64,000 nt of DNA from positions 744,001-808,000 of the forward strand of contig NZ_CP051204.2 of assembly GCF_012516375.2 (NCBI RefSeq). The letters run 5' to 3'. This DNA comes from Chitinophaga oryzae. GTDB taxonomy: Bacteria; Bacteroidota; Bacteroidia; Chitinophagales; Chitinophagaceae. Both the position numbers and the translations under genes were made by a program. Below, piece by piece: positions 1,241 through 17,025 of the stretch (position 1 is its first letter; every line of letters starts with the position of its first letter). A model generated the notes under the pieces. It saw only the letters and a list, made by a program, of their open reading frames with translations. It made no database searches and was not told the DNA's origin.

Positions 1241-3019
1241 ATGAAAACAACAACCATTTTACCCCGGCCAGTAATTCAACTTTTGAATACTGGAGTTCAT
1301 CTCGCAAAAAGCGCTGAAGCCCAACGTGCGGTGGTCCTGATCAACGCGGCCGCCACTTTGACATGTATATTGGCCCTGATTACAGGATTGACCATATACT
1401 ATATTACAAGCTCAATTCCAATGCTTTTAGGTGTATTAGCAGAAACATCCTGTTTTGTCGGTGTAATCGTTCTGAACAAATATGGGAGGCATAATTTGGC
1501 TGCCGGTGTTACGTTGCTTATTCATTGCACATTTGCTTTGTACTTTGGCGCCCTACTAGGACCTGCTATGCCTCTAGAGTTGATAACTGTCTTTCTACTT
1601 AGCTTTTTGACAGGTGGATGCTATTTGATATACAGGGACAAAAAAATTAGGGTGTATCTACTAGTTATCATCTTGATCGTGTTTTCTGTTATGTTGACAA
1701 ATAACTATACGAAGCTAGTGGAACCCATCCACATACAATCTGGGCCGTTCTTATTGATAAAAGGGTTTTGTTGTATTAGTATTTTGACTCTGATGGGTTT
1801 TGTTGTCGTGGAGATCATTAACCAGAATGATAAGCATAAGGACCAGGCAGCTCTGAAACTAATTGAATTGAAACAGGAAAATAAAGAAATCGTCGCTGAA
1901 TCCGAAAAGCGGATTAATTATCTTTATGAAGCGGCACATGATATGAGAACACCTATAAGCGCTGTAATATCCTTTGCAGAAACTATAGAATGGGACAAAG
2001 TTAACAATCCAGATGTTGTTGATACTATCACAAAAATTTCCAAGTCTGGTACCATTGCCCGTGAAATTCTCAACAATACGTTGGACCTTGCAAAGCTAGC
2101 TACCGGGGAATTTGATGTCGTTAATTTGGCTCCCATGGATTTGAGGGCAACTATTAATGATTGTCTTCTGGTTAACAGCCATTTTGCTAGCAAATGCAAC
2201 TCTCACATTGCTCTCAACTACGGAAAGCTTCCCACCTATATTATTAGCGATGGTCTATTTATCAAACGACTTCTTAACAATGTATTTAGCAATGCAATTA
2301 AGTTTTCTCCAGAGGGTTCCCAAATTGATCTTTCAATAGCAATAACAGAGGAAAAGTTGCAAGAAAGGTTGCTATTTACCGTAAGTAATCCATCGAAAAT
2401 ACCTATTGATGAAATTCATCAGAAAATTGGCAGGTTCAAATCGGAGCGTAATCAGTTTGAAAATACTGGATTGGGAATTGGCATTATAAAGGAATTAGTG
2501 AAGAAGCTCAAAGGCAGTTGTCTAATGGAAACAGATGCCAAGAATGTACACTTCCATTTCAAGATCCCATTTACTGAATGTAGTCCGGAACAGATTGCTA
2601 GCTTAAAAGAAATGAACAAATCTTCCTTATTTAAAGATGCAAAAGACCTACTTGTGGGCCGTAGCGTTATAATAATTGAAGACGATAGTATGATGACTTT
2701 TTATTTGTCTAAGTGGTGTATCAGGCAACAAGCTAGTTATCGCACCTATAAGGATGGAAACGAGGGCTTAAATGCCTTGATGGAAGGTAGTTTGCCCGAT
2801 TTGCTGATTCTTGACCACAAAATCCCAGGATTAACCGGGGATCTTATTTTATATAACCTTCGTTATAAAGATGGTTTCGAAAGGATGAAAATAATCATTA
2901 ATTCCGCATGTAGTGACCCCGCAATACACCTTCGATACAAACAATTTCCAGGCATAACTTTTTTAACCAAGCCGTTAGACTTGGCAGTAATGAATGCTGC
3001 CATAGTGCGGTGGTTTTAA
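1241..3019 (+). CDS. Membrane hybrid sensor histidine kinase with C-terminal receiver
   Basis: This is a two-component hybrid kinase. Numbering from an in-frame ATG at 1139, residues about 65-225 form roughly six membrane segments. A HisKA dimerisation region follows with the phospho-acceptor His267 in AAHDMRTPI. The ATPase domain has its N box at about 380-389 and a reduced glycine loop (GLGIG, 444-448). The receiver at about 508-625 has the acidic pair ED515-516, phosphoacceptor Asp559 and Lys611. I chose the ATG at 1241 because the extra 34 residues are not hydrophobic and the related kinase at 14194 lacks them; 1139 remains possible. The usual D-x-G of the ATPase G1 box is not evident. 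It lies about 120 bp before a UbiA-fold gene on the same strand. The signal sensed is unknown. Confidence 0.88.
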   Translation: MKTTTILPRPVIQLLNTGVHLAKSAEAQRAVVLINAAATLTCILALITGLTIYYITSSIPMLLGVLAETSCFVGVIVLNKYGRHNLAAGVTLLIHCTFALYFGALLGPAMPLELITVFLLSFLTGGCYLIYRDKKIRVYLLVIILIVFSVMLTNNYTKLVEPIHIQSGPFLLIKGFCCISILTLMGFVVVEIINQNDKHKDQAALKLIELKQENKEIVAESEKRINYLYEAAHDMRTPISAVISFAETIEWDKVNNPDVVDTITKISKSGTIAREILNNTLDLAKLATGEFDVVNLAPMDLRATINDCLLVNSHFASKCNSHIALNYGKLPTYIISDGLFIKRLLNNVFSNAIKFSPEGSQIDLSIAITEEKLQERLLFTVSNPSKIPIDEIHQKIGRFKSERNQFENTGLGIGIIKELVKKLKGSCLMETDAKNVHFHFKIPFTECSPEQIASLKEMNKSSLFKDAKDLLVGRSVIIIEDDSMMTFYLSKWCIRQQASYRTYKDGNEGLNALMEGSLPDLLILDHKIPGLTGDLILYNLRYKDGFERMKIIINSACSDPAIHLRYKQFPGITFLTKPLDLAVMNAAIVRWF

Positions 3020-3140
3020 GCTTGCATTTTTATCTATAAATCAATTTTATAAACATTGTATGTATATTTAATTTAACTTTATTTATTGAGGCAATATTGA
3101 ACGCTAATGCTTAAATTTGGAGTACCAAATTTTTTGCCCT

Positions 3141-4052
3141 ATGGGCATGGTGCGCATCCTCAACACCGCTATCTCTCTTCCTGCCAAGGAAGCATACATT
3201 ATCTTCTTGTTCATCAGGAATGATATTTGGGATACTGTTATTCCAACTTTTCTCACTTTTATCGCTGCCTTTTTCTACAATCGGGAATCCTGGCGCCAAT
3301 TTCCCACGATGCTACTTTACGCCAGTATCTATAACCTGCTATACATTCTTACCTTTTGTATCGCAAACCAGGTAAACGGAGTGGAGGAAGATCGTCTAAA
3401 CAAGCCATACCGCCCCTTAGTAAGGGGAGTTCTAACGGTCAGAGAGGCTGAAAAAAGGTCCTATATCTATAATGCGCTTTTCCTTTTCACTGCTTACTTG
3501 CTTGATGTGTTTTGGTATGCACTTAGTTGGCAGCTGGTCACATTAATGATGTGCAATTGGGGCTTTAGTAATCATTGGTTCCTAAAAAATGTATTCTGTA
3601 TTTCAATTGGCACTATTTTACTACTCGGTGCGCAGTGGCGTATAGTCGGGGATGAAATTCAATTGCAGATATGGAATTTTATTTTCTTTTTGAGCTTTTG
3701 GGCTGGAGCTGGGCTACCGCTACAGGATTTTAGGGACCAGGACGGCGACCGGTATATGCGCCGAAAAACCCTTCCATTGGTGCTTGGCGACCTGCCGGCA
3801 CGCCGGTATATGATTGCTCACATGATGCTTCTTTCTCCGTTGCTGTACTTCTTTACCATCGCTACCCAAATAGATGACGCTAGCGAAATTTCATCCCCGA
3901 AAATGATCCTGGTAACTACCGCCCAAGTGCTGTGGCATTGGATCATTGCACTACGCATTTGGTTGTATCGTAATCCAGCTGCAGATGATACTTCTTATCA
4001 CTACTTCGTATGCCTGTTCTGTGTAACAATACCAATGATCTGTTTTTTATAA
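3141..4052 (+). CDS. UbiA-superfamily membrane protein, possible UbiA-type terpene cyclase
   Basis: This polytopic membrane protein has the two Asp-rich motifs of the UbiA prenyltransferase fold. Numbering from a TTG at 3117, the first is N84-xxx-G88-xxx-D92 followed by NKPYRPL. The second is D204FRDQDGD211 followed by RRKTLP. Ordinary UbiA enzymes carry NDxxDxxxD at the first site. Here the second and third positions are Gln and Gly, a pattern I associate from memory with membrane-bound UbiA-type terpene cyclases such as fungal Fma-TC. The membership is clear, but cyclase versus prenyl transfer is inference. I chose the ATG at 3141; TTG at 3117 and ATG at 3147 are alternatives. It follows the hybrid kinase on the same strand, and a class I terpene synthase lies 12 kb away. 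Confidence 0.75.
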   Translation: MGMVRILNTAISLPAKEAYIIFLFIRNDIWDTVIPTFLTFIAAFFYNRESWRQFPTMLLYASIYNLLYILTFCIANQVNGVEEDRLNKPYRPLVRGVLTVREAEKRSYIYNALFLFTAYLLDVFWYALSWQLVTLMMCNWGFSNHWFLKNVFCISIGTILLLGAQWRIVGDEIQLQIWNFIFFLSFWAGAGLPLQDFRDQDGDRYMRRKTLPLVLGDLPARRYMIAHMMLLSPLLYFFTIATQIDDASEISSPKMILVTTAQVLWHWIIALRIWLYRNPAADDTSYHYFVCLFCVTIPMICFL

Positions 4053-4241
4053 GAATGCGTATATCTATTTTTCGGTTCTGATGAAATATCCTATATTCGG
4101 TGTATAACTCTAAAGCTCTCAGTTTAACCCGAAGAGCGAATCGTCGATAGAAGGTATTGTCAGGTTAACCATCCATTCGCGCAGATTTCCCGCACGGGAA
4201 GATTTCCAGGTTGTTTTTTCTATTAACCCTCAATATTTTGT

Positions 4242-5486
4242 ATGAAAACATGTTTAACAACCCTTTATGTATTTTGCTGTATTATTGTTGTCCTTTCACT
4301 GTCCTGTAGCAAAAGAGACGTACGACAGGTACCCGATGAGTTCTTTCTAGACGCAAGATCTTACTTTGAAAGTTCAGTTCTTCCCGGCAGCCAAGGAGGG
4401 ACGAAAATAGCCGTTGATCAGTTGTTGCTAGAAAAATCACCAAATTGGAAGGAAGCCCGTATCCAGGAGCTACCTAGAGGAAAGACGGTCGTAGTACCCT
4501 TAAAGCATAAGGACACGACGCAATATGCGACAGTTATTGGCGGAACCTTTAAATGCCCCTTGGATAAGATCGGCTATCTGCTTCTTTCCAAAGACAAGGG
4601 CCACTTCAGGGCGGAAGTAATTTATAAGATACCTGATACCGCTAGGGTAACGGAAAAATTCTCTGGTATCGTGCTTATCGAAACCTGGGACGGCAGGTTC
4701 CTGGACGGTTACCGGTACCGCAACGACAGTGTCTTCAGGGTATCAACGCAGCTCCTCCCCGGGGGCCTGCAAACGAATTCATGGCAGACTACCTGTGAAG
4801 AAGTCGATTGGTACACCTGTGCCTACTCTGCAAACACAGACGTTTACTGTAATTATAGTCATACAACGAAGCATTGTATCGACAATCCGGACAACGGCAG
4901 CGGAACACCAACCGGAGGCGGTGTTGGCGGTGCTGGTGGCGGCGCTGGTACCCCAGTGTACCCAGGCCGTACCCCGGCCGACAGCGATCCCGCTACACGG
5001 CCAAGAAGGGAACCAACAGAGCCTACGGGCAAGTTAGATATCTGCAAAAAATCGTTTGTCTTTAAAAAAGTGATCAGCTTGGATCCTAATGGTTTCGGCG
5101 GATGGCAGATCGCCGCAGTTTCGAACGTTCACATGAATCTTGTCGATCCCGGCGACGGGGTATTAAAGATAGTTAGGCCTGGTCCGGTGCTTTACTTTGG
5201 TTTTCCCATTGTTCGGTCCAATAAGACGTTTTACTCTACAGCTCGTGCGGCAGAGCTGGCTGTAGAAATAGACAATAAAGCGTTGCTCGATGTGATGGCT
5301 AGATATCATTCTGGTAAGCCGATTGATTGGGAAGGAATGAATGCGTTATACAGGGAAAAACTAAATGAATATGCTAAGCAGTACGGAGGCAGGGTTACCT
5401 TGAGTCCAGGTATCGGCAATTTGACGGAAGACCTTCCGGTTACCCCAGCGAAATATTCCGGCATAGCGGGTATAGGATGTCTCTAA
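4242..5486 (+). CDS. Lipoprotein with Cys cluster, Gly/Pro linker and separate C-terminal domain
   Basis: The product has an N-terminal hydrophobic segment with lipobox LSLSC (Cys22), so it is likely a lipoprotein. Residues about 30-180 form an N-terminal domain resembling that of the truncated lipoprotein at 1-664. A cluster Cys185, Cys193, Cys203, Cys212 follows. A low-complexity Gly/Thr/Pro linker spans about 217-264, and an unrecognised C-terminal domain runs from 265 to 414. A conserved N-terminus, flexible linker and divergent C-terminus is the layout of polymorphic toxins and surface-displayed effectors, but no catalytic motif is visible. A strong hairpin terminator at 5501 separates it from the exported protein at 5550, which could be its partner. 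Function unknown. Confidence 0.8.
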   Translation: MKTCLTTLYVFCCIIVVLSLSCSKRDVRQVPDEFFLDARSYFESSVLPGSQGGTKIAVDQLLLEKSPNWKEARIQELPRGKTVVVPLKHKDTTQYATVIGGTFKCPLDKIGYLLLSKDKGHFRAEVIYKIPDTARVTEKFSGIVLIETWDGRFLDGYRYRNDSVFRVSTQLLPGGLQTNSWQTTCEEVDWYTCAYSANTDVYCNYSHTTKHCIDNPDNGSGTPTGGGVGGAGGGAGTPVYPGRTPADSDPATRPRREPTEPTGKLDICKKSFVFKKVISLDPNGFGGWQIAAVSNVHMNLVDPGDGVLKIVRPGPVLYFGFPIVRSNKTFYSTARAAELAVEIDNKALLDVMARYHSGKPIDWEGMNALYREKLNEYAKQYGGRVTLSPGIGNLTEDLPVTPAKYSGIAGIGCL

Positions 5487-5500
5487 TAACAGCGTTATAA

Positions 5501-5534
5501 TATAGGGTGGCATAGCCACCCTATATTAATTTTT
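5501..5534 (+). terminator. Hairpin terminator after the lipoprotein gene
   Basis: A perfect 11-bp stem (TATAGGGTGGC, 5501-5511, with its complement at 5515-5525) closes a 3-nt loop and is followed by TTAATTTTT. It sits 15 bp after the stop codon at 5486. Confidence 0.75.
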
Positions 5535-5549
5535 GGTATATTACAATAA

Positions 5550-6095
5550 ATGATAAAATTATTTTCATTATTCACCATGTCCATGATGTTATACATGTCA
5601 GCGGAAGCCCAAATTACGGCGATCGGCATAAACCATGTCCACTTGCATACTCCGATTAGTGAAATTGCAAGGAAGGTGCGGTTCCTTGATTCGCCATACC
5701 GGAAATTCTTCAGCGCAAAACCAGCAAACAATTTCTATTTTTTATTTATGGACCAGGAGGAGGACAGCAGTAATATCGTAAGGTTCCTGATTGCACAGAC
5801 GGGGAAAGCGGGAACCATCATCAAGCTGTATGCGTATCTCGAAGCTAATGATCTTAAGCGTCTGATCGATCAAATCAATACCTTCAGCAATAAACATACA
5901 ATAGCAACCAGTAGTATCGGGGAGCAATTCGGTAGCTTTGTACACGGCTGGTCCACCGATGCTGGTACGACGATACTTGCCGGCCGCAGTGGTATATGGG
6001 ATCAAACCGTTGGCTTTGTGCCTACGATCGTTTCTATCTTTTACAAATCGGATCTTGATGAAATTGATGGCACCTTTGTCGATACGAAAAAATAG
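5550..6095 (+). CDS. Small exported protein of unknown function
   Basis: The 181-residue product starts with a cleavable signal peptide (residues 1-21, ending SAEAQ), so it should be periplasmic or secreted. The mature part is soluble and mixed alpha/beta by appearance. It contains GINHVHLHTP near the mature N-terminus, but I recognise no family. It lies just behind the lipoprotein terminator and in the same direction. An exported protein directly after a candidate displayed effector could be an immunity or accessory partner; this is inference from position only. Confidence 0.6.
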   Translation: MIKLFSLFTMSMMLYMSAEAQITAIGINHVHLHTPISEIARKVRFLDSPYRKFFSAKPANNFYFLFMDQEEDSSNIVRFLIAQTGKAGTIIKLYAYLEANDLKRLIDQINTFSNKHTIATSSIGEQFGSFVHGWSTDAGTTILAGRSGIWDQTVGFVPTIVSIFYKSDLDEIDGTFVDTKK

Positions 6096-6149
6096 CAATA
6101 GTACTTTTTTGCGTAATGTTCGTTCTATTTAAAAGCAGCTATTGGATTT

Positions 6150-6824
6150 ATGTACAAGTTGAAAAAATATTCTGTGCCGGAATATGCAGAAATGGTGTGG
6201 ACGATATGTAATAAGCAATTCTCTATAGAGCATTTTAATAACCTTAGGTTTTTGAGTAAAACCAGAATGGAAATAGGTGACGCGAAATATGTTCTTACTG
6301 AGCATGACAGGCGGGAAGTTGACAATGCTATGATGCACCGGATCATGCGCATATGTGTGACGCAGGTTAACCTTGGAAGAGTACCTGAAGTTTACTGGTG
6401 TGGAGATTCCGGTTTCTCACCTCATGTTTCTGGAAGAGACGGCTTCCTACCGTTGGACGTTGGTGGTTTTGCGGAGGTACTGCACAACAATGATATTGAA
6501 CTAAGGAAAAACTACCAGGGACGGCTTATTGCTATCGAGCGGTATATTCATCCTACAGGTGATCCCAATTTTGTTATTCTCCTGGGAACGAAACACTATG
6601 GCAAACTTGTGGAAGTGGATGCACTCATGAATAAAATCAACGAGATTGATCCTGCAGTAAATCCTTCTTACGAGAAGGGGCAAATAACAGGCTTTTACAA
6701 TGGAAGCTATTCCCAAAAATATATATACAGTCTGAGACCTTGTTTTGTAACATTGAATTTTTCAAAACAAGCAATAACCGCCATTGAAAAGGCGATTGGG
6801 GAAATGGTAACACCTCTGGAGTAG
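6150..6824 (+). CDS. Conserved-looking protein of unknown function
   Basis: This 224-residue protein starts at an ATG 55 bp after the preceding gene. It has no signal peptide and no clear membrane segment, so it is probably cytoplasmic. The sequence is well balanced, with a central VPEVYWCGDSGFSPHVSGRDGF segment split by Gly and Asp residues. I do not recognise a domain. It is co-oriented with the exported protein at 5550 and may be part of the same cargo cluster. Confidence 0.55.
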   Translation: MYKLKKYSVPEYAEMVWTICNKQFSIEHFNNLRFLSKTRMEIGDAKYVLTEHDRREVDNAMMHRIMRICVTQVNLGRVPEVYWCGDSGFSPHVSGRDGFLPLDVGGFAEVLHNNDIELRKNYQGRLIAIERYIHPTGDPNFVILLGTKHYGKLVEVDALMNKINEIDPAVNPSYEKGQITGFYNGSYSQKYIYSLRPCFVTLNFSKQAITAIEKAIGEMVTPLE

Positions 6825-6971: not shown

Positions 6972-7343
6972 ATGGAAAACTCGATGCTCATTTCAAAAAA
7001 ATCATGGAGGCGTTTTGTCTTTTGCAGACGTGACTCAACAACTATTGTTCAGTATTCATATCAGGGAATTACGGTGAGGATTACGGAAGGAACGAACAGA
7101 ACCATCAATATGGTGGCCCCGATGCTTATCGCATATAAAGTAAAAAACATAACCGTTTGGATAACATCTTTACCTGTCCAGGGAAAACTGATGGACCAGT
7201 TTAAACTCGCCGATACGTTCCGGCAATATCATTCATTCAGTCGGAGAATAGCTCCAAAGTACCAACCGGCTAAAATAATGAAGATTGAGCATTGTCCTGT
7301 CCCAGTGGCGGCAGCCCCGGCCATTCCCAGAGCGTGTATTTAG
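6972..7343 (+). CDS. Doubtful ORF converging on the SRAP gene
   Basis: An open frame of 123 codons begins with ATG at 6972. Its last 24 codons overlap the 3' end of the oppositely transcribed SRAP gene. Residues about 20-90 look protein-like, but the tail is alanine/proline-rich and is explained by the opposing gene. It may be a truncated gene whose original C-terminus was replaced when the repair cassette was inserted. Without it, 6825-7269 holds nothing I can name. Confidence 0.3.
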   Translation: MENSMLISKKSWRRFVFCRRDSTTIVQYSYQGITVRITEGTNRTINMVAPMLIAYKVKNITVWITSLPVQGKLMDQFKLADTFRQYHSFSRRIAPKYQPAKIMKIEHCPVPVAAAPAIPRACI

Positions 7344-8061
7344 GCATGCCGTCAGGCCTGACTTTACCGCCCCGGATGGAATACACTGGGTGATATTCCA
7401 GGTCCTTATCTGGAATTTTGTATGCCAGGATTTCTTTCATTTCATTTTCCTGAAGGCTGGCCGAAATCCAGCTTTGGGCCATTTCCTCAGTGAGAAATAG
7501 GGGCATTCTATGCTTGTTGGTTCCGGAATTATGAATCCCAGCCATAGTAGTGTTCGCGCCCGTAGTTAACAACCCAAAGCTGAGGTTTTCGGTTACCACT
7601 CCGTCATTGTCTACTACGGATGCTTGCTGATATAGGCCGGGCAGGTAAAAGGGCTTTCCATCTGGATAGAAAACAAAATACGGGACCATATTTTTGATCC
7701 CATTTACCTTCCGATGTTCATATATGCCATTTACCGGTATCAGTAAACGCCGTTTCCGCAGTTTGTGAGCAAGGGAAGCAGTTTCAGTAAATATCTTTTC
7801 ACTTCTCAAGTTCAACTGGTTATTCCTACGAATGTCTCGCTCTTTTCTGTCGGTTATCCAGGTCGGAAATACTCCCCATTCCATAGTAGTAGCTTCCTGT
7901 CTGCCATCTGTACTAACGATAACACTGCATTCCGGGAAAAGTGGGCCTAGAATCTGCTCATTAAATTCAATGCTATACGCAGGTGTTCTTTTGATTACTA
8001 ATCCTGGAAATGCCTCTTTCGTAATCTGGATATCACTGTGAAATGCTATGTCAACGCACAT
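7270..8061 (-). CDS. SRAP/YedK-HMCES family abasic-site DNA-protein crosslinking protein
   Basis: SRAP proteins trap abasic sites in single-stranded DNA through the N-terminal Cys2 that is exposed after Met removal. The key residues are present: Cys2, Asn84 in LNLRSE, Glu115 in NGIYEH (usual form GFYEW) and His184 in KHRMP. The 263 residues are slightly longer than E. coli YedK. It is the last gene of the leftward repair cassette, starting 4 bp after the stop of the 164-residue gene, so it is surely co-transcribed. SRAP genes commonly travel with translesion polymerases on mobile elements, which fits. Confidence 0.92.
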   Translation of the reverse strand: MCVDIAFHSDIQITKEAFPGLVIKRTPAYSIEFNEQILGPLFPECSVIVSTDGRQEATTMEWGVFPTWITDRKERDIRRNNQLNLRSEKIFTETASLAHKLRKRRLLIPVNGIYEHRKVNGIKNMVPYFVFYPDGKPFYLPGLYQQASVVDNDGVVTENLSFGLLTTGANTTMAGIHNSGTNKHRMPLFLTEEMAQSWISASLQENEMKEILAYKIPDKDLEYHPVYSIRGGKVRPDGMPKYTLWEWPGLPPLGQDNAQSSLF

Positions 8062-8065
8062 AAAA

Positions 8066-8560
8066 CTATGTTTTTAGAATTTGATCAACTGGAATTTTCA
8101 CAGGCTCCTTCTCACTAGCATGAATTTCCGCCATAAGACGACCATATTCAAAGTATAGGTTTACCTGAACAGGACCTTGCAGTGGGGTGGTGTTCGTCTG
8201 CTTTGTAATGTAGGAAACAAATTGTTTTTTGTACTTCGAGTGCATCCGCTTCTTCCAATCTCCTCTTTGAAACGTGTTGATGAAGACGTGGTATTCTGAT
8301 CCCGGTTGAAGCAATGCTTTCAATTTTTCAGCATCTTCAGATACATCCAGCATTTTACCTTCCCCGACCTGAAGATGTTGGTAGTGCACAAGTGCATTTT
8401 CTTTTTTTGAATAACGACTGACCATAAACCCTTTGCCAGAAGGCACACCAGGCCATTCGAACCTCTGTACGATCCAATATTTTTCTCCCATTATTACGCT
8501 AAACTGAATCATTGACTCAGTCAGGCGATCAAAGGGATTATAGAAAAAAGTGGTGCGCAT
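8066..8560 (-). CDS. Small protein of the mutagenesis cassette, function unknown
   Basis: The 164-residue product has no signal peptide or membrane segment. It is rich in aromatic and basic residues (for example KKRMHSKYKKQF near residues 103-114), which would suit nucleic-acid contact, but no family is recognised. It sits between the DnaE-type polymerase and SRAP genes, 51 bp after the first and 4 bp before the second, so it belongs to the repair operon. A role as an accessory factor for the polymerases is inferred from position. Confidence 0.7.
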   Translation of the reverse strand: MRTTFFYNPFDRLTESMIQFSVIMGEKYWIVQRFEWPGVPSGKGFMVSRYSKKENALVHYQHLQVGEGKMLDVSEDAEKLKALLQPGSEYHVFINTFQRGDWKKRMHSKYKKQFVSYITKQTNTTPLQGPVQVNLYFEYGRLMAEIHASEKEPVKIPVDQILKT

Positions 8561-8611
8561 ATTTCTAAATTACGAAATTTTTGTATGTCTGCCTCGAATC
8601 CGGCTTTTCCC

Positions 8612-11584
8612 TCATGAAAGCTTAGGATGGCGGATCACAAATCTCGGGTCTGGCCTGATCGGTAATTTGCTCATACTTTCTACTGTTATCGAAGGAAACC
8701 CGAAACTGGTGGTCACTGTTCCCTGAATACGGTAAATGCCCGACTTCTGAAAAGGATAGCGCTGGTAAACATGCGGAAAATGGACCGTATCAAAGAATTG
8801 TCCATCACGATCCAGGAATGTCCCAAATGCCATTGTTTCGCCATTACGGGTCCGGGTCTGCTTCATTGTTACAAAAAGGCCGGTAATTGTAACAGGTGCG
8901 CCGGCATGATTCAGCAGGTCGGAGACCATAATACCGAGATTTTGCTGACTCTTTAGCAGGAAGAATGGTGACAAGCTGACGGAAAAGCCCAAGAGTTCCA
9001 TTTCGTCATAAAAGTCCTCGTCAGAAGCCCATTCAAAGTTGGGGACAGTTGGCAGCTTCAACGCTGGTTGAAAAAGAAGCTCCATACCCGCGTATTTGTT
9101 TTGAGTTGCCTTTTTGCTGGCAAGCAGTAGATGGGCCTTCCAGAGTAGTGACTTTTTCGTCTCACCGGTAAAACGTAGCGCCCCTACGCTGACCAAAAGT
9201 AACAATTGTTCCAGTCCCGGGGTGCAGCGGGTAACAAAGTCCTCCAGGCTGCTGAAGGCAGCAGCCTTACGCTGCTCGAGTATTGTTTCAATCATCTTCA
9301 CTTCCAAACGATCGACCATATTAAACCCTAAGAATATGTCTTTGCCATAAAGCCGTGTTTTCAATTCAGAATAATTAACACAGGGAAGATTGATCGTCGC
9401 TCCGGCTTTTCGCGCCTCGGTTACGTATAACCAGCGAGCATAAAAGCCTCCCTCATTGTTAATGACAGCCGTCATGAATTCTATTGGGTAGTGCGCTTTC
9501 AGGAAAAGGCTCTGGTAGCTTTCCACGGCGTAGCTGGCAGAATGAGCCTTGGAAAAGCTGTAACCTGCAAAACTTTCCATCTGGCGCCAGACCTCGGCGG
9601 TAATCTTCGCGTCATGGCCAACTGCTGCACAATGGCCGAAAAACTTCTCCCGTATCTCTTCAAGATGATGGCGCCCACGGTTCTTGCCCGACATCAGGCG
9701 GCGCAGCACGTCCGCATCCGCCAGGTCCAAGCCCCCAAAGTGGTGGCCAATCTTCAACACATCTTCCTGGTAAATCATTACCCCGAAGGTCTCGCTCAGC
9801 TGCTCTTTAAGGATGGGATGCAGGTACGTGAAACCATGAGGGTTGTGATACCGCTTTATATATTCGTCCATCATCCCCGAGGATCCGACACCGGGTCTGA
9901 TAATGCTGCTGGCAGCCACCAAGGTCAGATAGTCGCTGCAGCGTAGCTTTTTCAGCACACCGCGCATAGCCGGGCTTTCAATATAGAAGCAGCCAATGCT
10001 GTCGCCGGACTGTAACTGCGCATTGACTTTTACGTCGCTTTTGATTGTCGCTACAGCATGCACATCAACATCCTTTTCCTGGTTCTGCCGAATGATCTCC
10101 ACCGCTTCTTTAATATGCCCGATGCCGCGCTGGCTTAGGATATCCAGCTTTTCAAAGCCAATATCTTCAGCAGTATACATATCGAACTGCGTTGTTGGTA
10201 GCCCCTTGGGAGGAAGATCCAGTGCTACATAGGCGGTAATCGGTAGCTCGGATATCAATACTCCGCCAGCATGGATGCTGCGAAGGTTAGGGAAATCCTT
10301 CGGCAGCATTTCATAGGTAGCCATGATCTTGTCGACGATCTCATTGCGATTCTGAAAAGAAGCCGGATACTCGATCAGTCGATCGATCTCTCCTTTAGGA
10401 AGGCCATATACCTTAGCAATTTCCCGGATAATGCTCCTGTCCTTGAAAGTGGACATCATACCCAGCAATGCCGTATGCTTTTTACCGTACCGCATGAAAA
10501 TATATTCGAAGACCTCGTCACGGTCGCGCCAGGAAAAATCGATATCGAAATCCGGCGGCGTCTTTCTCTTTGGGTTCAAGAAGCGCTCAAAGTAAAGGTC
10601 AAGCTCCAAGGGACAGACGTCCGTTATCCTGAGGCAGTAGGCCACTACGCTATTAGCGCCGCTTCCTCGGCCTACATGATAGAAGCCTCTATGAGCAGAA
10701 TACCGTATAACATCCCAGGTGATTAGAAAGTAGCAGGAAAAGCCGAGGCGATCGATCACTGCAAGTTCCTGCTGGACACGCTCAAGCGCCACCCTATTCT
10801 TTTCACCGTACCGCTGCTTCCAGCCATCCAGCGCCAGCTTTTCTAGCAGCAGCCGGTCGTTATAAGTATTGCCGGTGTATGTCTTTTTGTTCTTTACAGT
10901 GGTAAAGTCAAAATCGAAACGACATTGCTCCAGCAGCTTACTGGTGTTGATAATGATTTGTGGAAAGCTGCTGTATAATGAAATCAGCTCCGGCTGCGAC
11001 AGCAGCACCTCATTCCGGGCGCCGGCCTGTGAAGGTTGAAGCTGAGACAGCAGGATGTTATGGTCGATAGCCCGAAGCTGGCAGTGCAGCTTAAATTCCT
11101 TTATTTCAAGAAAACTCACCGGAGCCCAAATCACCAGCCGCTCCTGAAAAGCTTTCGGCCTCATCACGATCCGCGTCAACTGCTCCGGACGGATACCAAT
11201 ATACTCGTTGTCACGTAATGCCTGGTCCTGATCTGGCCGGAAAGGATAAATGAAGAAAGCGTCAGTCAGCTCGGGGGCCTGTGCAGGTATCGCCTTCCCT
11301 TCTAAGTTATGTTCCGTTAGAAATTCATTGAGCTGCTGGAATCCTGCATTGTTACGAGCAACGCCGATGTACAGCAATGCGTTCCCATGACGAAATTCAA
11401 TACCGCCAAGGCCATTGAAGCCTTTCTGCCGACAGTATCTAATAAATTCCAGCACACCAGTACTGTTATTGATATCGGTAAGCACTGCAGTATCATAACC
11501 TTCCTGTTGCAATGCATCTACCAGATCTGCTACGGGTATGGTACCATAGCGAAGCGAATAGTATGTGTGACAATTTATAAGCAT
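8612..11584 (-). CDS. dnaE2: DnaE-type DNA polymerase III alpha subunit, error-prone class
   Basis: This C-family replicative-type polymerase has 990 residues. The PHP domain is at the N-terminus (NCHTYYSLRYGT, 4-15). The palm follows with RGSGANS at 306-312 and the catalytic Asp motif PDFDID at 344-349. The fingers come next, and an OB-fold (VTITGLFVTMKQ) lies near the C-terminus. It is shorter than a housekeeping alpha subunit. Its place directly behind a Y-family polymerase and in front of SRAP is typical of DnaE2/ImuC-type translesion cassettes. It starts 79 bp after the Y-family gene and probably acts in damage-induced mutagenesis. The gene symbol reflects class, not proven orthology. 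Confidence 0.9.
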   Translation of the reverse strand: MLINCHTYYSLRYGTIPVADLVDALQQEGYDTAVLTDINNSTGVLEFIRYCRQKGFNGLGGIEFRHGNALLYIGVARNNAGFQQLNEFLTEHNLEGKAIPAQAPELTDAFFIYPFRPDQDQALRDNEYIGIRPEQLTRIVMRPKAFQERLVIWAPVSFLEIKEFKLHCQLRAIDHNILLSQLQPSQAGARNEVLLSQPELISLYSSFPQIIINTSKLLEQCRFDFDFTTVKNKKTYTGNTYNDRLLLEKLALDGWKQRYGEKNRVALERVQQELAVIDRLGFSCYFLITWDVIRYSAHRGFYHVGRGSGANSVVAYCLRITDVCPLELDLYFERFLNPKRKTPPDFDIDFSWRDRDEVFEYIFMRYGKKHTALLGMMSTFKDRSIIREIAKVYGLPKGEIDRLIEYPASFQNRNEIVDKIMATYEMLPKDFPNLRSIHAGGVLISELPITAYVALDLPPKGLPTTQFDMYTAEDIGFEKLDILSQRGIGHIKEAVEIIRQNQEKDVDVHAVATIKSDVKVNAQLQSGDSIGCFYIESPAMRGVLKKLRCSDYLTLVAASSIIRPGVGSSGMMDEYIKRYHNPHGFTYLHPILKEQLSETFGVMIYQEDVLKIGHHFGGLDLADADVLRRLMSGKNRGRHHLEEIREKFFGHCAAVGHDAKITAEVWRQMESFAGYSFSKAHSASYAVESYQSLFLKAHYPIEFMTAVINNEGGFYARWLYVTEARKAGATINLPCVNYSELKTRLYGKDIFLGFNMVDRLEVKMIETILEQRKAAAFSSLEDFVTRCTPGLEQLLLLVSVGALRFTGETKKSLLWKAHLLLASKKATQNKYAGMELLFQPALKLPTVPNFEWASDEDFYDEMELLGFSVSLSPFFLLKSQQNLGIMVSDLLNHAGAPVTITGLFVTMKQTRTRNGETMAFGTFLDRDGQFFDTVHFPHVYQRYPFQKSGIYRIQGTVTTSFGFPSITVESMSKLPIRPDPRFVIRHPKLS

Positions 11585-11663
11585 AACACCTCCCTTGTTT
11601 AAACAAAAAGGGCGACATAGGATTGGTGAGTGTTAGCCAGTAAGCATTTGGTTGGTATTGATT

Positions 11664-12803
11664 TTAAAGACACGCAGCCTTTTTCAGTAATTCGGGGCCG
11701 AACCGTTTTTTAATTCCATCTATAGCCTGATACAGATTTATCTTTCCAACGGAATCGGAGAACAAATCGATCTGGTAAGAACCGCTGACAAAATCACTGA
11801 ACTTCACGCCTACCAGGCGCACCAACATCCGCCGGTCATATAGCTTTTCAAATAGCTGCAGTGCTGTTTTTACAAGTACATCATCAGTTGAGCTATACGG
11901 TATTTGACTTTGTCGGCTATAGGTATTCCAATCCGCATAACGAATGGTTATCGTCACGCAGCCAGTGAGCCGCTGCTGACTGCGCAATTCAAAACCCAGT
12001 TCATCGACAAACCCGATGATAGTTTTATGCAAGATGTTCATATCTGTTGTATCCCGTTCAAAAGTTATCGACCGACTGACACTCTTCTGTTCCTGGTAGG
12101 GGATTACGGGTGATTCGTCAAGGCCATTGGCTTTGCTGTAAATCATTATGCCTGCCTTACCAAAGGTGGCTTCCATCAGCTCCGGCTGTAGTGCCTGAAG
12201 GTGGTAAATGTGAGAAGCCCCCATTTTGCAGAGCATTTTATATGTTTCTGGGCCAATTCCAGGGATCTTATTGGCGGGTAAAGGCGCCAAGAATGCTCGC
12301 TCCATGCCATGGCCAACCTCTAACGATCCAGCAGGCTTGGCTTGACCAGTGGTAATTTTGCTAACCGTCTTATTGGGTGACAGGCCCATGCTGATCGATA
12401 GCCCGGTTTCCCGGATTACCTTCTTGCGTAATTCCAGCGACCATTTCCAGCATCCGAAAAAGCGGTCCATGCCGGATAAATCTAGGTAAAATTCGTCGAT
12501 GGATGCCTTTTCTACCAACGGAGCTTTTTCTATCAGGATATCGGTCACTAGCTTGGAATACTTACTGTACTCATCATAATCCCCTTTCCGTATGACTGCG
12601 TCGGGGCAGAGCCGCTGAGCCAGACGCATCGGCATGGCGCTATGTACCCCGAATTGCCTGGCTTCATAACTACAGCTGGCCACAACCGCCCGGTCACTGT
12701 TTCCTCCGACTAAGACGGGCTTTCCTATAAGAGAGCGATCTCTAAGTCGTTCAACGGAAACGAAGAACGTATCCATGTCCATATGCACAATATTGCGTTC
12801 CAT
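11664..12803 (-). CDS. dinB: Y-family DNA polymerase (DinB/Pol IV type)
   Basis: The 379-residue product has all Y-family catalytic carboxylates: Asp9 and Asp11 in HMDMDTFF, and Asp103 and Glu104 in ASIDEFYLDLSG. A helix-hairpin-helix (IPGIGPETY) and the little-finger domain follow. DinB/UmuC-type enzymes copy past DNA lesions. It is the promoter-proximal gene of the leftward cassette dinB - dnaE - 164-residue protein - SRAP. Two palindromic boxes at 12823-12862 lie just upstream of the ATG. ImuB-like proteins lack the catalytic triad; this one keeps it, so it should be active. Confidence 0.93.
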   Translation of the reverse strand: MERNIVHMDMDTFFVSVERLRDRSLIGKPVLVGGNSDRAVVASCSYEARQFGVHSAMPMRLAQRLCPDAVIRKGDYDEYSKYSKLVTDILIEKAPLVEKASIDEFYLDLSGMDRFFGCWKWSLELRKKVIRETGLSISMGLSPNKTVSKITTGQAKPAGSLEVGHGMERAFLAPLPANKIPGIGPETYKMLCKMGASHIYHLQALQPELMEATFGKAGIMIYSKANGLDESPVIPYQEQKSVSRSITFERDTTDMNILHKTIIGFVDELGFELRSQQRLTGCVTITIRYADWNTYSRQSQIPYSSTDDVLVKTALQLFEKLYDRRMLVRLVGVKFSDFVSGSYQIDLFSDSVGKINLYQAIDGIKKRFGPELLKKAACL

Positions 12804-12822
12804 GTTCTTCTTTTAATATTTT

Positions 12823-12862
12823 TGGCACTAATAATGCCATGATTATGTCATCAATAATGACA
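12823..12862 (-). promoter_or_regulatory. Tandem 17-bp palindromes, candidate damage-response operator
   Basis: Two palindromes of equal length and the same shape lie upstream of the polymerase operon: TGGCA-N7-TGCCA at 12823-12839 and TGTCAT-N5-ATGACA at 12846-12862. They align as TGKCA-N7-TGMCA with a shared AATAATG core, and their centres are 23 bp apart, about two helical turns. The first is 20 bp from the start codon, so a bound dimeric repressor could block the promoter. A LexA-like regulator is the natural candidate by context, but none is encoded nearby. Confidence 0.6.
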
Positions 12863-13124
12863 AAATTTTTTGAAAGGACAAAATTTTAATGGTGACTGGA
12901 AATTGAAGATGTAGAAAGAAACGTTACAATTATATCAGGATCAATTCCTTGCGAAGGCAGGCCGCCATGTAAAGTTGGCTGATTTAAACGCAAAATTTCG
13001 GTATACTTTCGAAACTCTCAAAATCTCCACATAGGCGGTGTCCCATTTTTGTTGCATCCTTTAGCCAGAACCGAAGCGAATCGGCAAAATCAATTTGATC
13101 AACACCTATACAGGAACCGTCTGA
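12863..13124. other. Intergenic stretch with apparent decayed coding sequence
   Basis: No intact gene. Short protein-like stretches appear in different plus-strand frames, for example from about 12967 (KLADLNAKF) and from about 13055, broken by stops. This suggests degenerate remnants of former genes. Confidence 0.3.
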
Positions 13125-13328
13125 AAAACAGCGGGACCCCAGCATCCGGGTTGCCAAATTTTAGTTAGAATTCTCCGAAATCATTATGCATTCTTATATG
13201 AAGTTGATGAAAAAAGGCTGTGGGCCGTTGTTGATTTGTTCAATGCACTGGAAGCATATAACGGCTTCGGATATCGGAAAAAGAAATCCAACACTTCCTA
13301 TAATTTCCTGTCATTTACATTTGGTTAA
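13125..13328 (+). pseudogene. Remnant reading frame without a start codon
   Basis: An open frame runs from after an in-frame TGA at 13122 to a TAA at 13326-13328. It has no ATG, but its product (containing YEVDEKRLWAVVDLFNALEA) looks like genuine protein. It is most likely the 3' end of a decayed gene. The overlapping ATG frame at 13186-13371 is explained by it. Confidence 0.35.
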
Positions 13329-13357
13329 CATTCTTCTCGATTCCAATATTTACTTTC

Positions 13358-13561
13358 ATGATCTGTTTTAATTCAAACACTCAGAGAGAATGGAGACTAT
13401 CAATACAAAACAATCAGGATTCTACGAAACAGTATTTGCCAAACTTAAAATATTGCATACACATAGGCGATGACGAAAAGTTAGGAAACTATCTCATTTC
13501 TATATATAGGAATTTGCCCCTAGTATCGATTAAAATTATACAACCAAAAAAACAGCGATGA
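13358..13561 (+). CDS. Small protein of unknown function
   Basis: A 67-residue product, polar with a basic C-terminus (IIQPKKQR). Its stop overlaps the ATG of the next gene by 4 bp (ATGA at 13558-13561), which suggests translational coupling and is the main reason to believe it is real. No domain recognised. Confidence 0.45.
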   Translation: MICFNSNTQREWRLSIQNNQDSTKQYLPNLKYCIHIGDDEKLGNYLISIYRNLPLVSIKIIQPKKQR

Positions 13562-13992
13562 ACTTGCACGAATTCTCAGTGATAATACAACAGAAGGAAT
13601 CAGATAGATTCATCGAAATTGAGACTATCCTTATAAATGCTCCCATAAACTACACTGTAAAATACGATACACGTGACGGTTTTCGATATGTCATTGAAGA
13701 CGCTGACTCATTAGCTCCATACATTTATGTATTAAATTCTATTAAAAGTAAAAGAATAGTCCTGTCGTTGTATACTGTTAGCAACACGTCTTACTCGGAA
13801 CTTGTGTTGAAAAAATTTAAAGTATTTTCCAAACTACCATTTGGATGGAAAAAGGATAGCTATTTCCCTTGTTTTTTTGGTAATATCCAAAAGCTTTATG
13901 CACATGAGCTATTTTTGAAAAGGAAGCTTGCAAAGACAACTACTATAAATTACTTTCGAAATTGCATTGGTACCTACACAAAAGCGTTATAA
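13558..13992 (+). CDS. Protein of unknown function, coupled to the small upstream gene
   Basis: The 144-residue product has no signal peptide or membrane segment and is rich in aromatic and lysine residues, especially in its second half (FKVFSKLPFGWKKDSYFPC). It starts within the stop codon of the preceding small gene. I recognise no family. It lies in AT-rich cargo sequence between the repair cassette and the second sensor kinase. Confidence 0.55.
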   Translation: MNLHEFSVIIQQKESDRFIEIETILINAPINYTVKYDTRDGFRYVIEDADSLAPYIYVLNSIKSKRIVLSLYTVSNTSYSELVLKKFKVFSKLPFGWKKDSYFPCFFGNIQKLYAHELFLKRKLAKTTTINYFRNCIGTYTKAL

Positions 13993-14193
13993 ATCGTCAG
14001 AACATGAGAGTAACAAACTACTTAATTTTTAAAAAGACCAATAGAATAATTTTATTTTGACAATAAAAAGAAAGCGTAAAAAAGAACTTTTTTCTGTAAA
14101 TTGTATGTGACCCAATGATAACCTGCACTGAAAATTAAAGCACTTAGTAGATCGGCAAAAGTAACTCCCCTATTTTTTACAACCCTCAATAAA

Positions 14194-15582
14194 ATGAATA
14201 TGAAACCGCAACAAACGAACGATCGGACAGTAAGTAAAGAAAACTTCATTCGTGCGTTTTTTGATTATGTAACTAATGCAGGCGCAAAGCAAACAGATCA
14301 ATATGATACGAAGTTAGAAATTAGCAAGGGAATAAATATTCTAACGGCTTGGGCCATCCTCATAAATATCATCACCGGACCCGCCCTTACAAAAATGACT
14401 GGTGATTACCGGATAATTATCGGAGCGGCTATCGAACTGCTATGTTTGATACCGATTTTCTCGCTAAACAGGCAACGAAGATTTCGAACCGCAAACCTAC
14501 TATTTTTCTTTGTCATGAATACTTCAATGCTTTACTTCGGCCTAATCTTAGGTAAAAGCGTAGGAATTACGCTTATGGCGATTTTTCTAGCTGGACTAAC
14601 AATGTTTGTATTTACTAATAAAAAGCACATCATAACAAGTGCTACAACTACATTTTTAATTCTGATAATGCTTGAATATAATTACAAGCACTCATTTGTT
14701 CCTCCGGTATCTGCCAATTCGAACACACATACTTTCATGGAGTTTACAGCACTATGTGTAATGTTCTCCCTTGTTGTTATGGTGTTTCATTTTTTTGCGA
14801 AAATAAAAAATAAAAATATTGCCAAGGAAAAAGAAATCAATAAAAGCAAGTCAAAAGAGATAGCGCAAGTTAAAGACATCAGTGAAAGCAAAACCTTTTT
14901 TATTCGTTCTTTCGCCCATGAAATGAAGACCTATGTTTATCATGTCTGTTTCGCATGTGGGCTTTTGGAATCAAAAGACCAGGACGTTCCCAACGAGCAA
15001 AAAATGTTCATTTTAAAGTCTGGTAGTGAGAACCTTCAAAGATTTGTCGAAAACATGCTGATCTACAGCAAACTAGACGCCGGAAAAATTGATCAACCAG
15101 ATTATAAGAGAATTGAAACAAAGTGGTTTATTGACAATGCGTTGAATTTGAGTTTTTTTATTCATGCGTCCGAGAAGGAAATAACGCTTAGGCTAGACAA
15201 GAATTTCCCAGCTACCTTTGTAACCGACCCTACGAAATTCCAAATTATCTTAAATAATTTAATCAGTAATGCTGTAAAATTTACAACGACAGATACTCCC
15301 ATTGTTATATCCTTTCAAAGTGAAAGCACTTATTGGTGTGTTGGGATTGAGAATTCAGGTAACGAAATCCCGAAAAACGAAATGCAAGAAATATTTAAAC
15401 CATTTGTTACAAAGAGAATCAAGGAAATAAACAAAAATGGTTCAGGAATTGGGCTGTATGTTACCAAAAATTATGTAGAAAATATGAATGGGAAAATTAG
15501 CGTATACTCCGAAAATGGCGTCACTCGTTTTACAGTTATGTTCCCATATTCAAATGAACTATTACTGAAAGAAACCGCATAA
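14194..15582 (+). CDS. Membrane sensor histidine kinase
   Basis: This 462-residue kinase has an N-terminal cytosolic stretch, about six membrane segments (residues 48-200), a short charged coiled region (205-232), a HisKA region with His242 in FAHEMK, and an ATPase domain with N box LNNLISNAVKF (353-363) and glycine loop NGSGIGL (415-421). There is no receiver domain. Its membrane layout resembles the hybrid kinase at 1241-3019, so the two are probably paralogous sensors. It is followed within 15 bp by a 110-residue gene and then a terpene synthase on the same strand. No cognate DNA-binding regulator is adjacent. Confidence 0.9.
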   Translation: MNMKPQQTNDRTVSKENFIRAFFDYVTNAGAKQTDQYDTKLEISKGINILTAWAILINIITGPALTKMTGDYRIIIGAAIELLCLIPIFSLNRQRRFRTANLLFFFVMNTSMLYFGLILGKSVGITLMAIFLAGLTMFVFTNKKHIITSATTTFLILIMLEYNYKHSFVPPVSANSNTHTFMEFTALCVMFSLVVMVFHFFAKIKNKNIAKEKEINKSKSKEIAQVKDISESKTFFIRSFAHEMKTYVYHVCFACGLLESKDQDVPNEQKMFILKSGSENLQRFVENMLIYSKLDAGKIDQPDYKRIETKWFIDNALNLSFFIHASEKEITLRLDKNFPATFVTDPTKFQIILNNLISNAVKFTTTDTPIVISFQSESTYWCVGIENSGNEIPKNEMQEIFKPFVTKRIKEINKNGSGIGLYVTKNYVENMNGKISVYSENGVTRFTVMFPYSNELLLKETA

Positions 15583-15596
15583 AATTTATTAAATAG

Positions 15597-15929
15597 ATGT
15601 TCTATGTATACTACTTCACGTTTCCTGATCAAGAATGCAAAAATCTGGTTGAAGGATTGTATAGCACTAGTATAGGAGACTTCGAAACTAAAATGAAGTT
15701 TCACAGTATGCTACCGAATCTGGAATCAATTAGATTTTTCAGCTATATAGCTGCCGAACATTTCGGACGAACTCTAGCCCCCAGGCAAATGCTGTTTGCG
15801 ATAACTAACGCCAATCACCAATTCTTAGTACGAAGCAGAGACTGCATAGCCATGTGTGATGAATTTTACCCGATACCAGCAACAAAAACCCTTTTATACA
15901 TGATAAACAAGCATTTATCTAGAAATTAG
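15597..15929 (+). CDS. Small protein between sensor kinase and terpene synthase
   Basis: The 110-residue product starts 15 bp after the kinase stop, so it is probably co-transcribed with it. It has no membrane segment and no Asp pocket of a receiver domain. It includes a CDEFYPIPATKTLLYMI segment near the C-terminus. I do not recognise a family. From position it could be an output or accessory factor of the kinase; this is inference. Confidence 0.6.
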   Translation: MFYVYYFTFPDQECKNLVEGLYSTSIGDFETKMKFHSMLPNLESIRFFSYIAAEHFGRTLAPRQMLFAITNANHQFLVRSRDCIAMCDEFYPIPATKTLLYMINKHLSRN

Positions 15930-16050
15930 TAGGATACAATTTTTCACTGCAATAGGATAGCATTGAAATAAAAAGTATTCGAATATAAAAAATAAGAATT
16001 TGTGCCTTATATTTATTGTATTTGTCACAAATTCCACTGATTCATTTGCT

Positions 16051-17025
16051 ATGCAACTTTATCACATTCCTAAATTGTACTATCCATTCCCGTCTTATAC
16101 CGACGTACAGTTAGAAAAGAAGGTAGAAAGTCACACATTACACTGGCTGCGAAGATTTGAACTACTTAACGAGGATCAGGTGCAGTTCTATGCAGATCAA
16201 CGGTTTTCGGCTATGATAGTGCGAAGTTACCCATTCGCCGATTTTGAAAAATTATGTATTTGGTGTGATCTTAATACCTTGTTATTCATAGTCGACGATA
16301 GATTGGATGAAGATTTCGTAATTCAGGATCGAGCTTCATTAACAGCGTATACTGATACATTCCTCCAGGTTTTGCACGACGGAATTGAATCGATTCCTAT
16401 CAATAAGCAGAGCAGTGAATTAACCGCATTAGATGACTTTTGGAAACGGGCGAAAAATATCTCCCCGTCAGCCTGGCAGGATGTCTTTATTCAAAACATC
16501 AAAGATATGTTTGCCGGTGGTTCATGGCAGCTCGAACACATTTTGGAGAACAAAAAACCAAAATTAAAAGACTATAAAGAGTTTCGACAATATCTTGGCG
16601 CTGCGCATCTCGCAACAGATTCACTTCCCTTCATGTCTGATATCGATTTGCCGTATACAATATATTCTGCCCCTGATGTGAAGTTATTGACCGAACAAGC
16701 GAGAAACATTGTCTGCTATTCAAATGATCTATTCTCTCTTGCAAAGGAAGTAGAGCAGTCGGAAGGAGGTGCTGAATTCAATCTTGTTTCAGTAATCTCG
16801 AATGAGGAAAATTGTTCTTTGCAGGAGGCCATTCTTAGGGCGGTCACCCTACATGATGAAACTGTTCGCGATTTCATAAAAACGGAAAAGCGCATCTATA
16901 CTTTTGACAGCCAAACAAACGAATCGCTTAAAAAATATGCCAGATCGCTCGAATTCTTCATAAAGGGGAATGAGGATTGGAGCACCAAGGAAACCACACG
17001 CTACCCTCATGTATATTTAGCGTAG
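16051..17025 (+). CDS. Class I terpene synthase (terpene cyclase)
   Basis: The enzyme should ionise and cyclise a linear isoprenyl diphosphate. From the ATG at 16051 it has 324 residues. The Mg-binding motif D82D83RLD86 is present. So are the NSE triad N225Dxx-S229-xxx-E233, the pyrophosphate-sensing Arg179 exactly 46 residues before the NSE Asn, and the C-terminal R317Y318 pair. This full set is diagnostic of bacterial type I cyclases. An upstream in-frame ATG at 16000 would add 17 residues; I prefer 16051 because the cyclase fold normally starts near MQLYHIPKLYYPFPS. The product cannot be predicted. It follows the 110-residue gene and sensor kinase in the same direction. Confidence 0.93.
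   Translation: MQLYHIPKLYYPFPSYTDVQLEKKVESHTLHWLRRFELLNEDQVQFYADQRFSAMIVRSYPFADFEKLCIWCDLNTLLFIVDDRLDEDFVIQDRASLTAYTDTFLQVLHDGIESIPINKQSSELTALDDFWKRAKNISPSAWQDVFIQNIKDMFAGGSWQLEHILENKKPKLKDYKEFRQYLGAAHLATDSLPFMSDIDLPYTIYSAPDVKLLTEQARNIVCYSNDLFSLAKEVEQSEGGAEFNLVSVISNEENCSLQEAILRAVTLHDETVRDFIKTEKRIYTFDSQTNESLKKYARSLEFFIKGNEDWSTKETTRYPHVYLA

Follow-up and report, generated by a model that had tools for sequence, protein, structure and literature searches.

Sensor kinases with a six-helix membrane domain encoded beside terpene cyclases in Chitinophaga: putative synthase-receptor modules, some on conjugative elements

Two sensor kinases of one membrane-bound family, each followed by a gene for a protein of terpene-cyclase type, lie in a 64,000-nucleotide stretch of Chitinophaga oryzae DNA (bases 744001-808000 of the single-contig 8.36-Mb genome; hereafter the window, whose positions serve as coordinates below), and kinases of this family recur across Chitinophaga, a genus of soil bacteria, and in some of its relatives next to genes for class I terpene synthases or for UbiA-type putative cyclases, two unrelated folds. 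This recurrent pairing is established here, together with the cyclase motifs, the architecture and predicted fold of the kinases, and carriage on a conjugative element. On balance, each kinase-cyclase pair appears to form a synthase-receptor module, the kinase of which would sense the lipophilic terpene made next door.

All genes of the two pairs lie on the plus strand. Kinase 1 (1241..3019) is a hybrid histidine kinase with Pfam matches to HisKA, HATPase_c and a C-terminal Response_reg, and with a six-helix membrane domain (KMD); its open frame starts at 1139, and the alignment of family members begins at about 1241. Directly behind it comes the UbiA-type putative terpene cyclase (3141..4052; Pfam UbiA). 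Kinase 2 (14194..15582) has the same membrane domain and a histidine kinase core (Pfam HATPase_c) and lacks the receiver; neither HisKA nor a receiver was called by Pfam, and a hidden Markov model (HMM) of the receiver was also negative. Between kinase 2 and the class I terpene synthase (16051..17025; Pfam Terpene_syn_C_2, 119.4 bits, cut-off 23.7) is a gene for a 110-residue protein of unassigned function (15597..15929), which has no Pfam or NCBIfam match. Positions and strand of the four principal genes, as an earlier note on this DNA had given them, agree with the open reading frame list and with Pfam, and the similar membrane layout that it had seen in the two kinases is matched by 24% identity over 423 residues of membrane region and kinase core (E 1e-21).

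Recurrent pairing of one kinase family with two types of cyclase

How often, then, does such a kinase stand beside a cyclase? When the kinase membrane parts were searched in 59 genomes, nine KMD kinases were found in the window's own genome (two further weak matches from a more sensitive search, E 1e-10 and 4e-9, are left out of the nine), six of them by a listed terpene synthase (17 synthases were found by Pfam, 14 of them listed); of the other three, kinase 1 has the UbiA gene as its neighbour, and those of L106 and L107 have neither. Among the 85 HATPase_c matches of this genome, a listed synthase lies within 3.5 kb of 6 of the 9 with a KMD versus none of the 76 others (Fisher 1.9e-7); likewise, none of the 14 non-KMD kinases of the fetched regions stands beside a terpene synthase. 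In a fixed sample consisting of the regions of all listed KMD kinases from 18 odd-numbered genus genomes (83 kinases), a synthase was encoded within 500 bp of 46, a UbiA gene within 500 bp of 6, and one or the other within that distance of 51. Outside this sample, at least 30 of 65 listed kinases lie within 3.5 kb of a listed synthase, a lower bound taken from coordinates alone. Taken together, 76 of 157 listed kinases are near a listed synthase, where uniform placement would give 0.76 (7.3-Mb genomes assumed).

All fetched regions contain 97 such kinases (83 of the sample, 9 of the own genome, 4 from regions fetched for a synthase or UbiA gene, and 1 from genome G202), 56 of which have a synthase within 500 bp, 7 a UbiA gene and 34 neither; an alternative count is 55, 8 and 34, as one kinase of locus L128 touches both cyclase types. 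KMD kinases without a cyclase keep conserved neighbourhoods of their own (small secreted proteins; cytochrome bd-like genes: L136, L158, L172, L181, L197; L132, L171, L179), as if they were receptors with other ligands. The 56 synthase pairs comprise 28 convergent, 25 with the kinase first, 2 with the synthase first and 1 divergent. Closely related pairs keep their orientation, namely in 16 of 16 comparisons under 0.5 changes per column and in 97% of 29 at 0.5-1.5. Pairing of kinase and synthase is present in five genera (g1, g3, g15, g35, g65), and in the other Chitinophagaceae genera the synthase is convergent with the kinase in 7 of the 12 strongest-kinase regions (L312, L314, L315, L319-L322). 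Two receiver-less kinases lie between synthases at L119, and at L263 a kinase stands in front of a synthase. A search of the phylum with a profile that includes the H-box (A3) matched 64 of 395 genomes, many weak matches covering only the H-box end, and around weakly matching kinases from outside the family Chitinophagaceae (eight regions, L323-L330) no synthase was seen within two genes to the left or right. A protein search with the kinase 2 membrane domain at E 1e-5 returned only itself among 655 candidates. In two other genera, a protein of 254-263 residues matching the histidine kinase core is encoded on the same strand beside a paired kinase (L320 4955-5719, L321 5916-6707); L320 also has a LuxR-type response regulator beside the pair.

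The UbiA-type pairs have a narrower distribution. The UbiA protein of the window has its nearest named relatives in Chitinophaga. UbiA-type relatives are encoded at 49 loci of the named genome collection (several of them from genomes also in the 83-kinase sample), and at 15 of the 16 Chitinophaga loci a KMD kinase lies upstream on the same strand, with gaps of -76 to 679 bp that do not exceed 165 bp in 11 cases; the kinase frames at two loci are short (393 codons at L209, 342 at L216). The sixteenth, from C. tropicalis (L113 7716-10923, the same as L219), is without a kinase and stands beside two terpene synthases that differ from each other in type. Because none of the 33 loci from genera other than Chitinophaga has a KMD kinase beside the UbiA-type relative, the pairing of UbiA protein and kinase is a lineage trait. 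Locus L128 of C. barathri, with kinase, UbiA gene, kinase and synthase in a row, is a compact version of the window. The repeated neighbourhoods by which the earlier note had proposed to judge its idea are thus present for both cyclase types, in 15 of 16 Chitinophaga loci for one and beside 46 of 83 sampled kinases for the other.

The membrane domain and what it may sense

Hydrophobicity and charge profiles, together with two AlphaFold2 models (mean pLDDT, the predicted local distance difference test score, 93.5 for the membrane domain of kinase 1 and 93.2 for that of kinase 2), show that the 97 kinases have a membrane domain of six helices and lack a large periplasmic domain. A C-terminal receiver is present in 91 of them, kinase 1 included, and absent from kinase 2. 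In a tree of the 97 membrane domains, the seven kinases with a UbiA partner fall into a single group (95/53) next to synthase-linked kinases, and the synthase label needs 15 changes versus 31.4 when shuffled; a simple reading of this tree would be that the cyclase type was exchanged once while the receptor was retained. A second-look structure aligner matched the predicted fold of the membrane domain to that of the six-helix domains of class III adenylyl cyclases, with 9-12% identity in the alignments. Unlike the class III adenylyl cyclases (Rv1625c/Cya, AC9, AC5), the KMD proteins have a histidine kinase as their output.

The mechanism that we favour would run as follows. The cyclase, be it a soluble class I synthase or a membrane-embedded UbiA-type protein, would convert farnesyl diphosphate (FPP) or a longer prenyl diphosphate to a lipophilic terpene. 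With no periplasmic sensor domain in the kinase, the role of receptor would fall to the six-helix membrane bundle, and terpene molecules dissolved in the membrane would set the kinase/phosphatase state. The signal would leave through the fused receiver where there is one; kinases without one, kinase 2 among them, would hand the signal to a separately encoded receiver protein. Several such pairs occur per genome, presumably for different terpenes, as do synthase-less kinases, and pairs are carried at times on conjugative elements. In the window, a stand-alone receiver-domain protein (20974..21396, plus strand; Pfam Response_reg, 59.1 bits) is a possible partner of kinase 2, and a LytTR DNA-binding protein with an N-terminal membrane part (18372..19313, plus strand; Pfam LytTR) a possible output of the system. 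No tblastn match to the 110-residue protein, to a 144-residue protein of the window or to the stand-alone receiver was found in the other fetched loci. The products of the cyclases, their binding and the output are what we infer from these arrangements.

If the kinase fits its neighbour's product, one would expect its membrane domain to show more co-divergence with the synthase than the kinase core accounts for. For 44 representatives and 2000 shuffles, membrane-domain and synthase distances correlated at a rho of 0.224 (6 of 2000 shuffles as high) and kinase-core and synthase distances at 0.186 (47 of 2000); the membrane domain retained 0.149 with the core held constant (92 of 2000), and the core 0.078 with the membrane domain held constant (371 of 2000). 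The corresponding partial values were 0.220 (9 of 2000) and -0.021 for convergent pairs, and 0.309 (62 of 2000) and 0.050 for kinase-first pairs. Because these were several tests on small sets uncorrected for the species tree, the co-divergence of membrane domain and synthase is suggestive only, and product sensing stays something we infer.

Several further points speak against product sensing. The co-divergence is weak, both overall and once the core is held constant. Neither cyclase stands beside 32 of the 83 sampled kinases (about 40%), and half of the listed synthases (75 of 150) are without such a kinase, the other 75 having one. A simple pattern found the H-box histidine in 77 of the 97 kinases. 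Foldseek gave no significant match to the membrane domain (best E 0.44), and the two membrane-domain models share most of their alignment rows. A fold shared with adenylyl cyclases is, moreover, no proof of ligand sensing; for the membrane domain of Rv1625c, roles in guiding assembly and in cation binding have been proposed as well (PMC9433096, in the part drawn on here).

Could the kinase simply be a local regulator, which responds to some other cue (membrane state, isoprenoid supply or a foreign molecule) and switches the cyclase via an unlinked response regulator? This is possible, if rather doubtful. The 25 kinase-first synthase pairs and the UbiA pairs, with their common strand and short gaps, are what co-transcription would lead one to expect, and a response-regulator gene lies within 3 kb of 14 of 55 synthase pairs, the LuxR-type regulator beside the L320 pair being a further case in point. 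However, the 28 convergent pairs do not suit this explanation, the kinases end in a receiver rather than in a DNA-binding domain, 41 of the 55 synthase pairs have no further response-regulator gene within 3 kb, and the signal of co-divergence with the synthase comes from the membrane domain and not from the core, which local regulation does not predict. Convergent orientation in half of the synthase pairs means that a common transcript does not explain why kinase and synthase stand side by side. We lean towards sensing of the product over control of terpene production, which the earlier note had left side by side.

Alternatively, the kinases might sense foreign terpenes from fungi, plants or competitors while the cyclase makes a reply or a mimic, so that the pair would serve a dialogue rather than self-sensing. 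Such a role would suit the frequency of synthase-less kinases, the existence of UbiA-type relatives in fungi and actinomycetes, and the several divergent pairs per genome which, with their conjugative carriage, fit an ecological arsenal; against it, the co-divergence signal favours the cell's own product, and we consider the dialogue improbable.

Cyclases of two unrelated folds

The UbiA protein of the window matches Pfam UbiA over residues 38-288 with 68.6 bits (cut-off 34.2). Ordinary prenyltransferases of this family carry NDxxDxxxD as motif I and DxxxD as motif II, and fungal UbiA-type terpene synthases Nxxx(G/A)xxxD and QDxxDxxxD (both from the part of PMC9835599 used here). The window protein reads NQVNGVEED (3366-3392) and QDFRDQDGD (3723-3749), so that the altered first motif, from which the earlier note had argued for a cyclase, does fit the pattern of the fungal enzymes. 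In the fifth place of motif I, however, the 112 of 120 listed relatives in which the motif was found have G (91), S (20) or A (1), and the serine occurs in some Chitinophaga members where the pattern has G/A. QDxxDxxxD, by comparison, is present in all 120 listed relatives (of 138 found) versus none of the six other UbiA matches of the same genome, in 8 of 8 kinase- or synthase-linked Chitinophaga homologues and in 22 of 22 diverse relatives, fungi included; motif II is stronger evidence for a UbiA-type cyclase than motif I. In a tree that holds no sequence known as a characterised cyclase, the protein groups with actinomycete, cyanobacterial and fungal relatives apart from the genome's ordinary UbiA proteins (SH-aLRT, the Shimodaira-Hasegawa-like approximate likelihood ratio test, 90). 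A grouping with ordinary menaquinone or heme prenyltransferases, by which the earlier note would have been contradicted, was accordingly not seen. The same genome encodes another UbiA protein, without QDxxDxxxD, about 2 kb from a terpene synthase (L110 7402-11389; G000:C1:2127-2131 kb).

Might the protein nevertheless be an ordinary prenyltransferase that adds a prenyl chain to an acceptor, its pair with kinase 1 having nothing to do with terpene cyclisation? The Pfam match and all NCBIfam matches are to prenyltransferase models (none over the NCBIfam cut-off), and the solved relatives found by sequence are prenyltransferases. Nonetheless, both Asp-rich motifs are those of UbiA-type cyclases as given in the part of PMC9835599 used here, the UbiA-linked kinases group within the synthase-linked ones, and the C. 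tropicalis copy stands by two terpene synthases; because of motif II above all, an ordinary prenyltransferase seems unlikely. The closest counterparts would be the UbiA-type terpene cyclases Fma-TC, EriG, StsC and Tps1A/Tps2A, which share the family and both altered motifs (PMC9835599, same part). Unlike these, the window protein is linked to a sensor kinase and is a putative cyclase by its motifs. Proteins of this kind add to the UbiA family a set of putative bacterial cyclases whose gene context hints at their function.

The class I synthase is the more conventional partner. It carries DDRLD (16294-16308), NDLFSLAKE (16723-16749) and RY (16999-17004), and an Arg sensor candidate read from the sequence lies 46 residues before the Asn of the NSE motif, so that the complete class I set (DDxxD, NSE, Arg sensor and RY) that had been claimed for it is indeed present. 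T-muurolol synthase is the closest solved structure by sequence (E 1e-38). Synthases in the fetched regions were called with a custom HMM built from 15 sequences, and Pfam confirms the window synthase and four others tried, including two of a distant type of 370-410 residues; pattern searches found DDxxD, NSE and RY together in 45 of the 56 kinase-linked synthases and NSE in 54. Cytochrome P450 genes adjoin a kinase without a synthase (L142:4243-5412) and a kinase-synthase pair (L321:1746-2912), hinting that some of these terpenes are oxidised.

Not every synthase has a kinase, and the difference follows rank: a KMD kinase accompanies 2 of the 35 listed synthases that rank best in their genome versus 73 of the remaining 115. 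The best-scoring PF19086 synthase of a genome is mostly without an adjoining sensor kinase (33 of 35 listed, for example G000:C1:5681184 and L266-L272), and therefore a conserved kinase-free synthase coexists with kinase-paired synthases across the genus. Class I synthases of proven activity are known from Chitinophaga, among them the 18-hydroxydolabella-3,7-diene synthase and CjCsS (PMC5588592, PMC12723471, in the parts drawn on), with which the window synthase shares enzyme family and genus. The word 'kinase' is absent from the searched text of papers on bacterial, mostly Chitinophaga, synthases, these two included, and in the open-licence literature of PubMed Central no report of a terpene synthase-kinase pairing was found.

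The carrying element and likeness to known systems

Both pairs of the window belong to the cargo of a conjugative element, as the earlier note had proposed. To the right of the cargo, a block of conjugation genes on the plus strand (23277..34620) encodes a TraG P-loop protein (23277-25898; Pfam), TraJ (30283-31431; NCBIfam, below cut-off), and TraK (31495-32112), TraM (32374-33753) and TraN (33793-34620), all three over their NCBIfam cut-offs; a large serine recombinase follows (39024..40631, plus strand; Pfam Resolvase and Recombinase). MobB (277 bits) and MobC (799 bits, its match beginning at profile position 217) are encoded to the left of the window, both below their NCBIfam cut-offs. The gene mobC, for the coupling protein, is split over two frames (L253:16745-17272 and 17298-18647), which puts the element's own transfer in doubt: the element may need help to transfer, or a sequencing error may lie in mobC. 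A tRNA-Ser(gga) gene (42996..43083, minus strand; ARAGORN) provides with its 3' end the right boundary of an insertion of about 55 kb, as similarity to four relatives begins at 42994-42996. In two of these relatives similarity resumes on the left at L253:8115 or 8032, so that an insertion of about 54.9 kb stands where they have different sequence of 8.9 and 5.9 kb; the other two relatives gave no alignment of the near left flank. No identical stretch of 10 bases or more that could be an att repeat was found at the element ends, and the boundary is sharp on the right side only. The left end of the insertion carries a gene for an Abi_C (abortive infection C-terminus) protein (L253:8310-9422, minus strand), and between the two pairs, on the minus strand of the window (7270-12803), lie genes for an SRAP protein, a 164-residue protein, a DnaE-type polymerase (990 residues) and an ImuB/DinB-type polymerase (379 residues), a set that looks like an SOS mutagenesis cassette.

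With TraG, J, K, M and N, an RteC-like protein, MobB and MobC, the element resembles the CTnDOT-like integrative conjugative elements of Bacteroidota, from which it differs in its split mobC and in a cargo of two kinase-cyclase pairs and a DNA-polymerase cassette. Such carriage recurs at three further pairs near conjugation genes (L257, Tra at 2.7-7.2 kb; L135, MobC at 0.3 kb; L263, of another genus, MobC at 1.4 kb), and most fetched regions have no match to the Mob or Tra proteins of the element. That neighbourhoods inherited passively or carried on mobile islands would join functionally unlinked genes is very improbable: some pairs are indeed on conjugative elements and close pairs keep their orientation by descent, but pairs occur at many unlinked places per genome, in five genera and four varying arrangements, unrelated cyclase folds share one kinase family, and other kinases are not enriched (0 of 76 in the genome and, in the fetched regions, 0 of 14 without a KMD), so that this explanation was rejected.

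What would synthase-receptor modules of this kind mean? Bacteria have numerous terpene synthases, mostly of unexplained purpose, and an adjoining receptor gene opens that purpose to direct testing by providing each terpene with a candidate sensor. If the products are what the kinases bind, terpenes would be a class of bacterial autoinducers, new as a signal class, and synthases of two unrelated folds would supply one family of receptors; the pairs, each offering a candidate natural ligand, could further serve as a tractable model for asking what six-helix domains of the adenylyl cyclase type sense. More tentatively still, Chitinophagaceae might use cyclic terpenes as autoinducers, with receptor kinases each tuned to its own neighbour's terpene as a multi-channel quorum-sensing repertoire that spreads on conjugative elements, and with the six-helix domain as an old receptor module for membrane-soluble small molecules; this bolder proposal we hold to be plausible rather than probable.

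The nearest known parallel is one of layout. CqsS is a hybrid kinase with a C-terminal receiver, which kinase 1 has and kinase 2 lacks. In CqsA/CqsS of Vibrio, whose genes are adjacent (PMC3285556), and in LqsA/LqsS of Legionella, a six-helix receptor kinase without large outer loops is encoded beside the synthase of a lipophilic signal (PMC3285556, PMC4821796, in the parts used here), and the kinase-cyclase pairs resemble them in this arrangement. They differ in that their synthases are terpene cyclases with one or the other of two unrelated folds rather than enzymes of the CqsA type, that several divergent pairs occur per genome, and that the ligand is a putative one. Because their partners are UbiA and Terpene_syn_C_2 proteins and not of the CqsA type, the pairs are not members of the CqsS/LqsS kind and would only work alike; in logic, the arrangement would be that of CqsA/CqsS with the amino-ketone synthase exchanged for a terpene cyclase.

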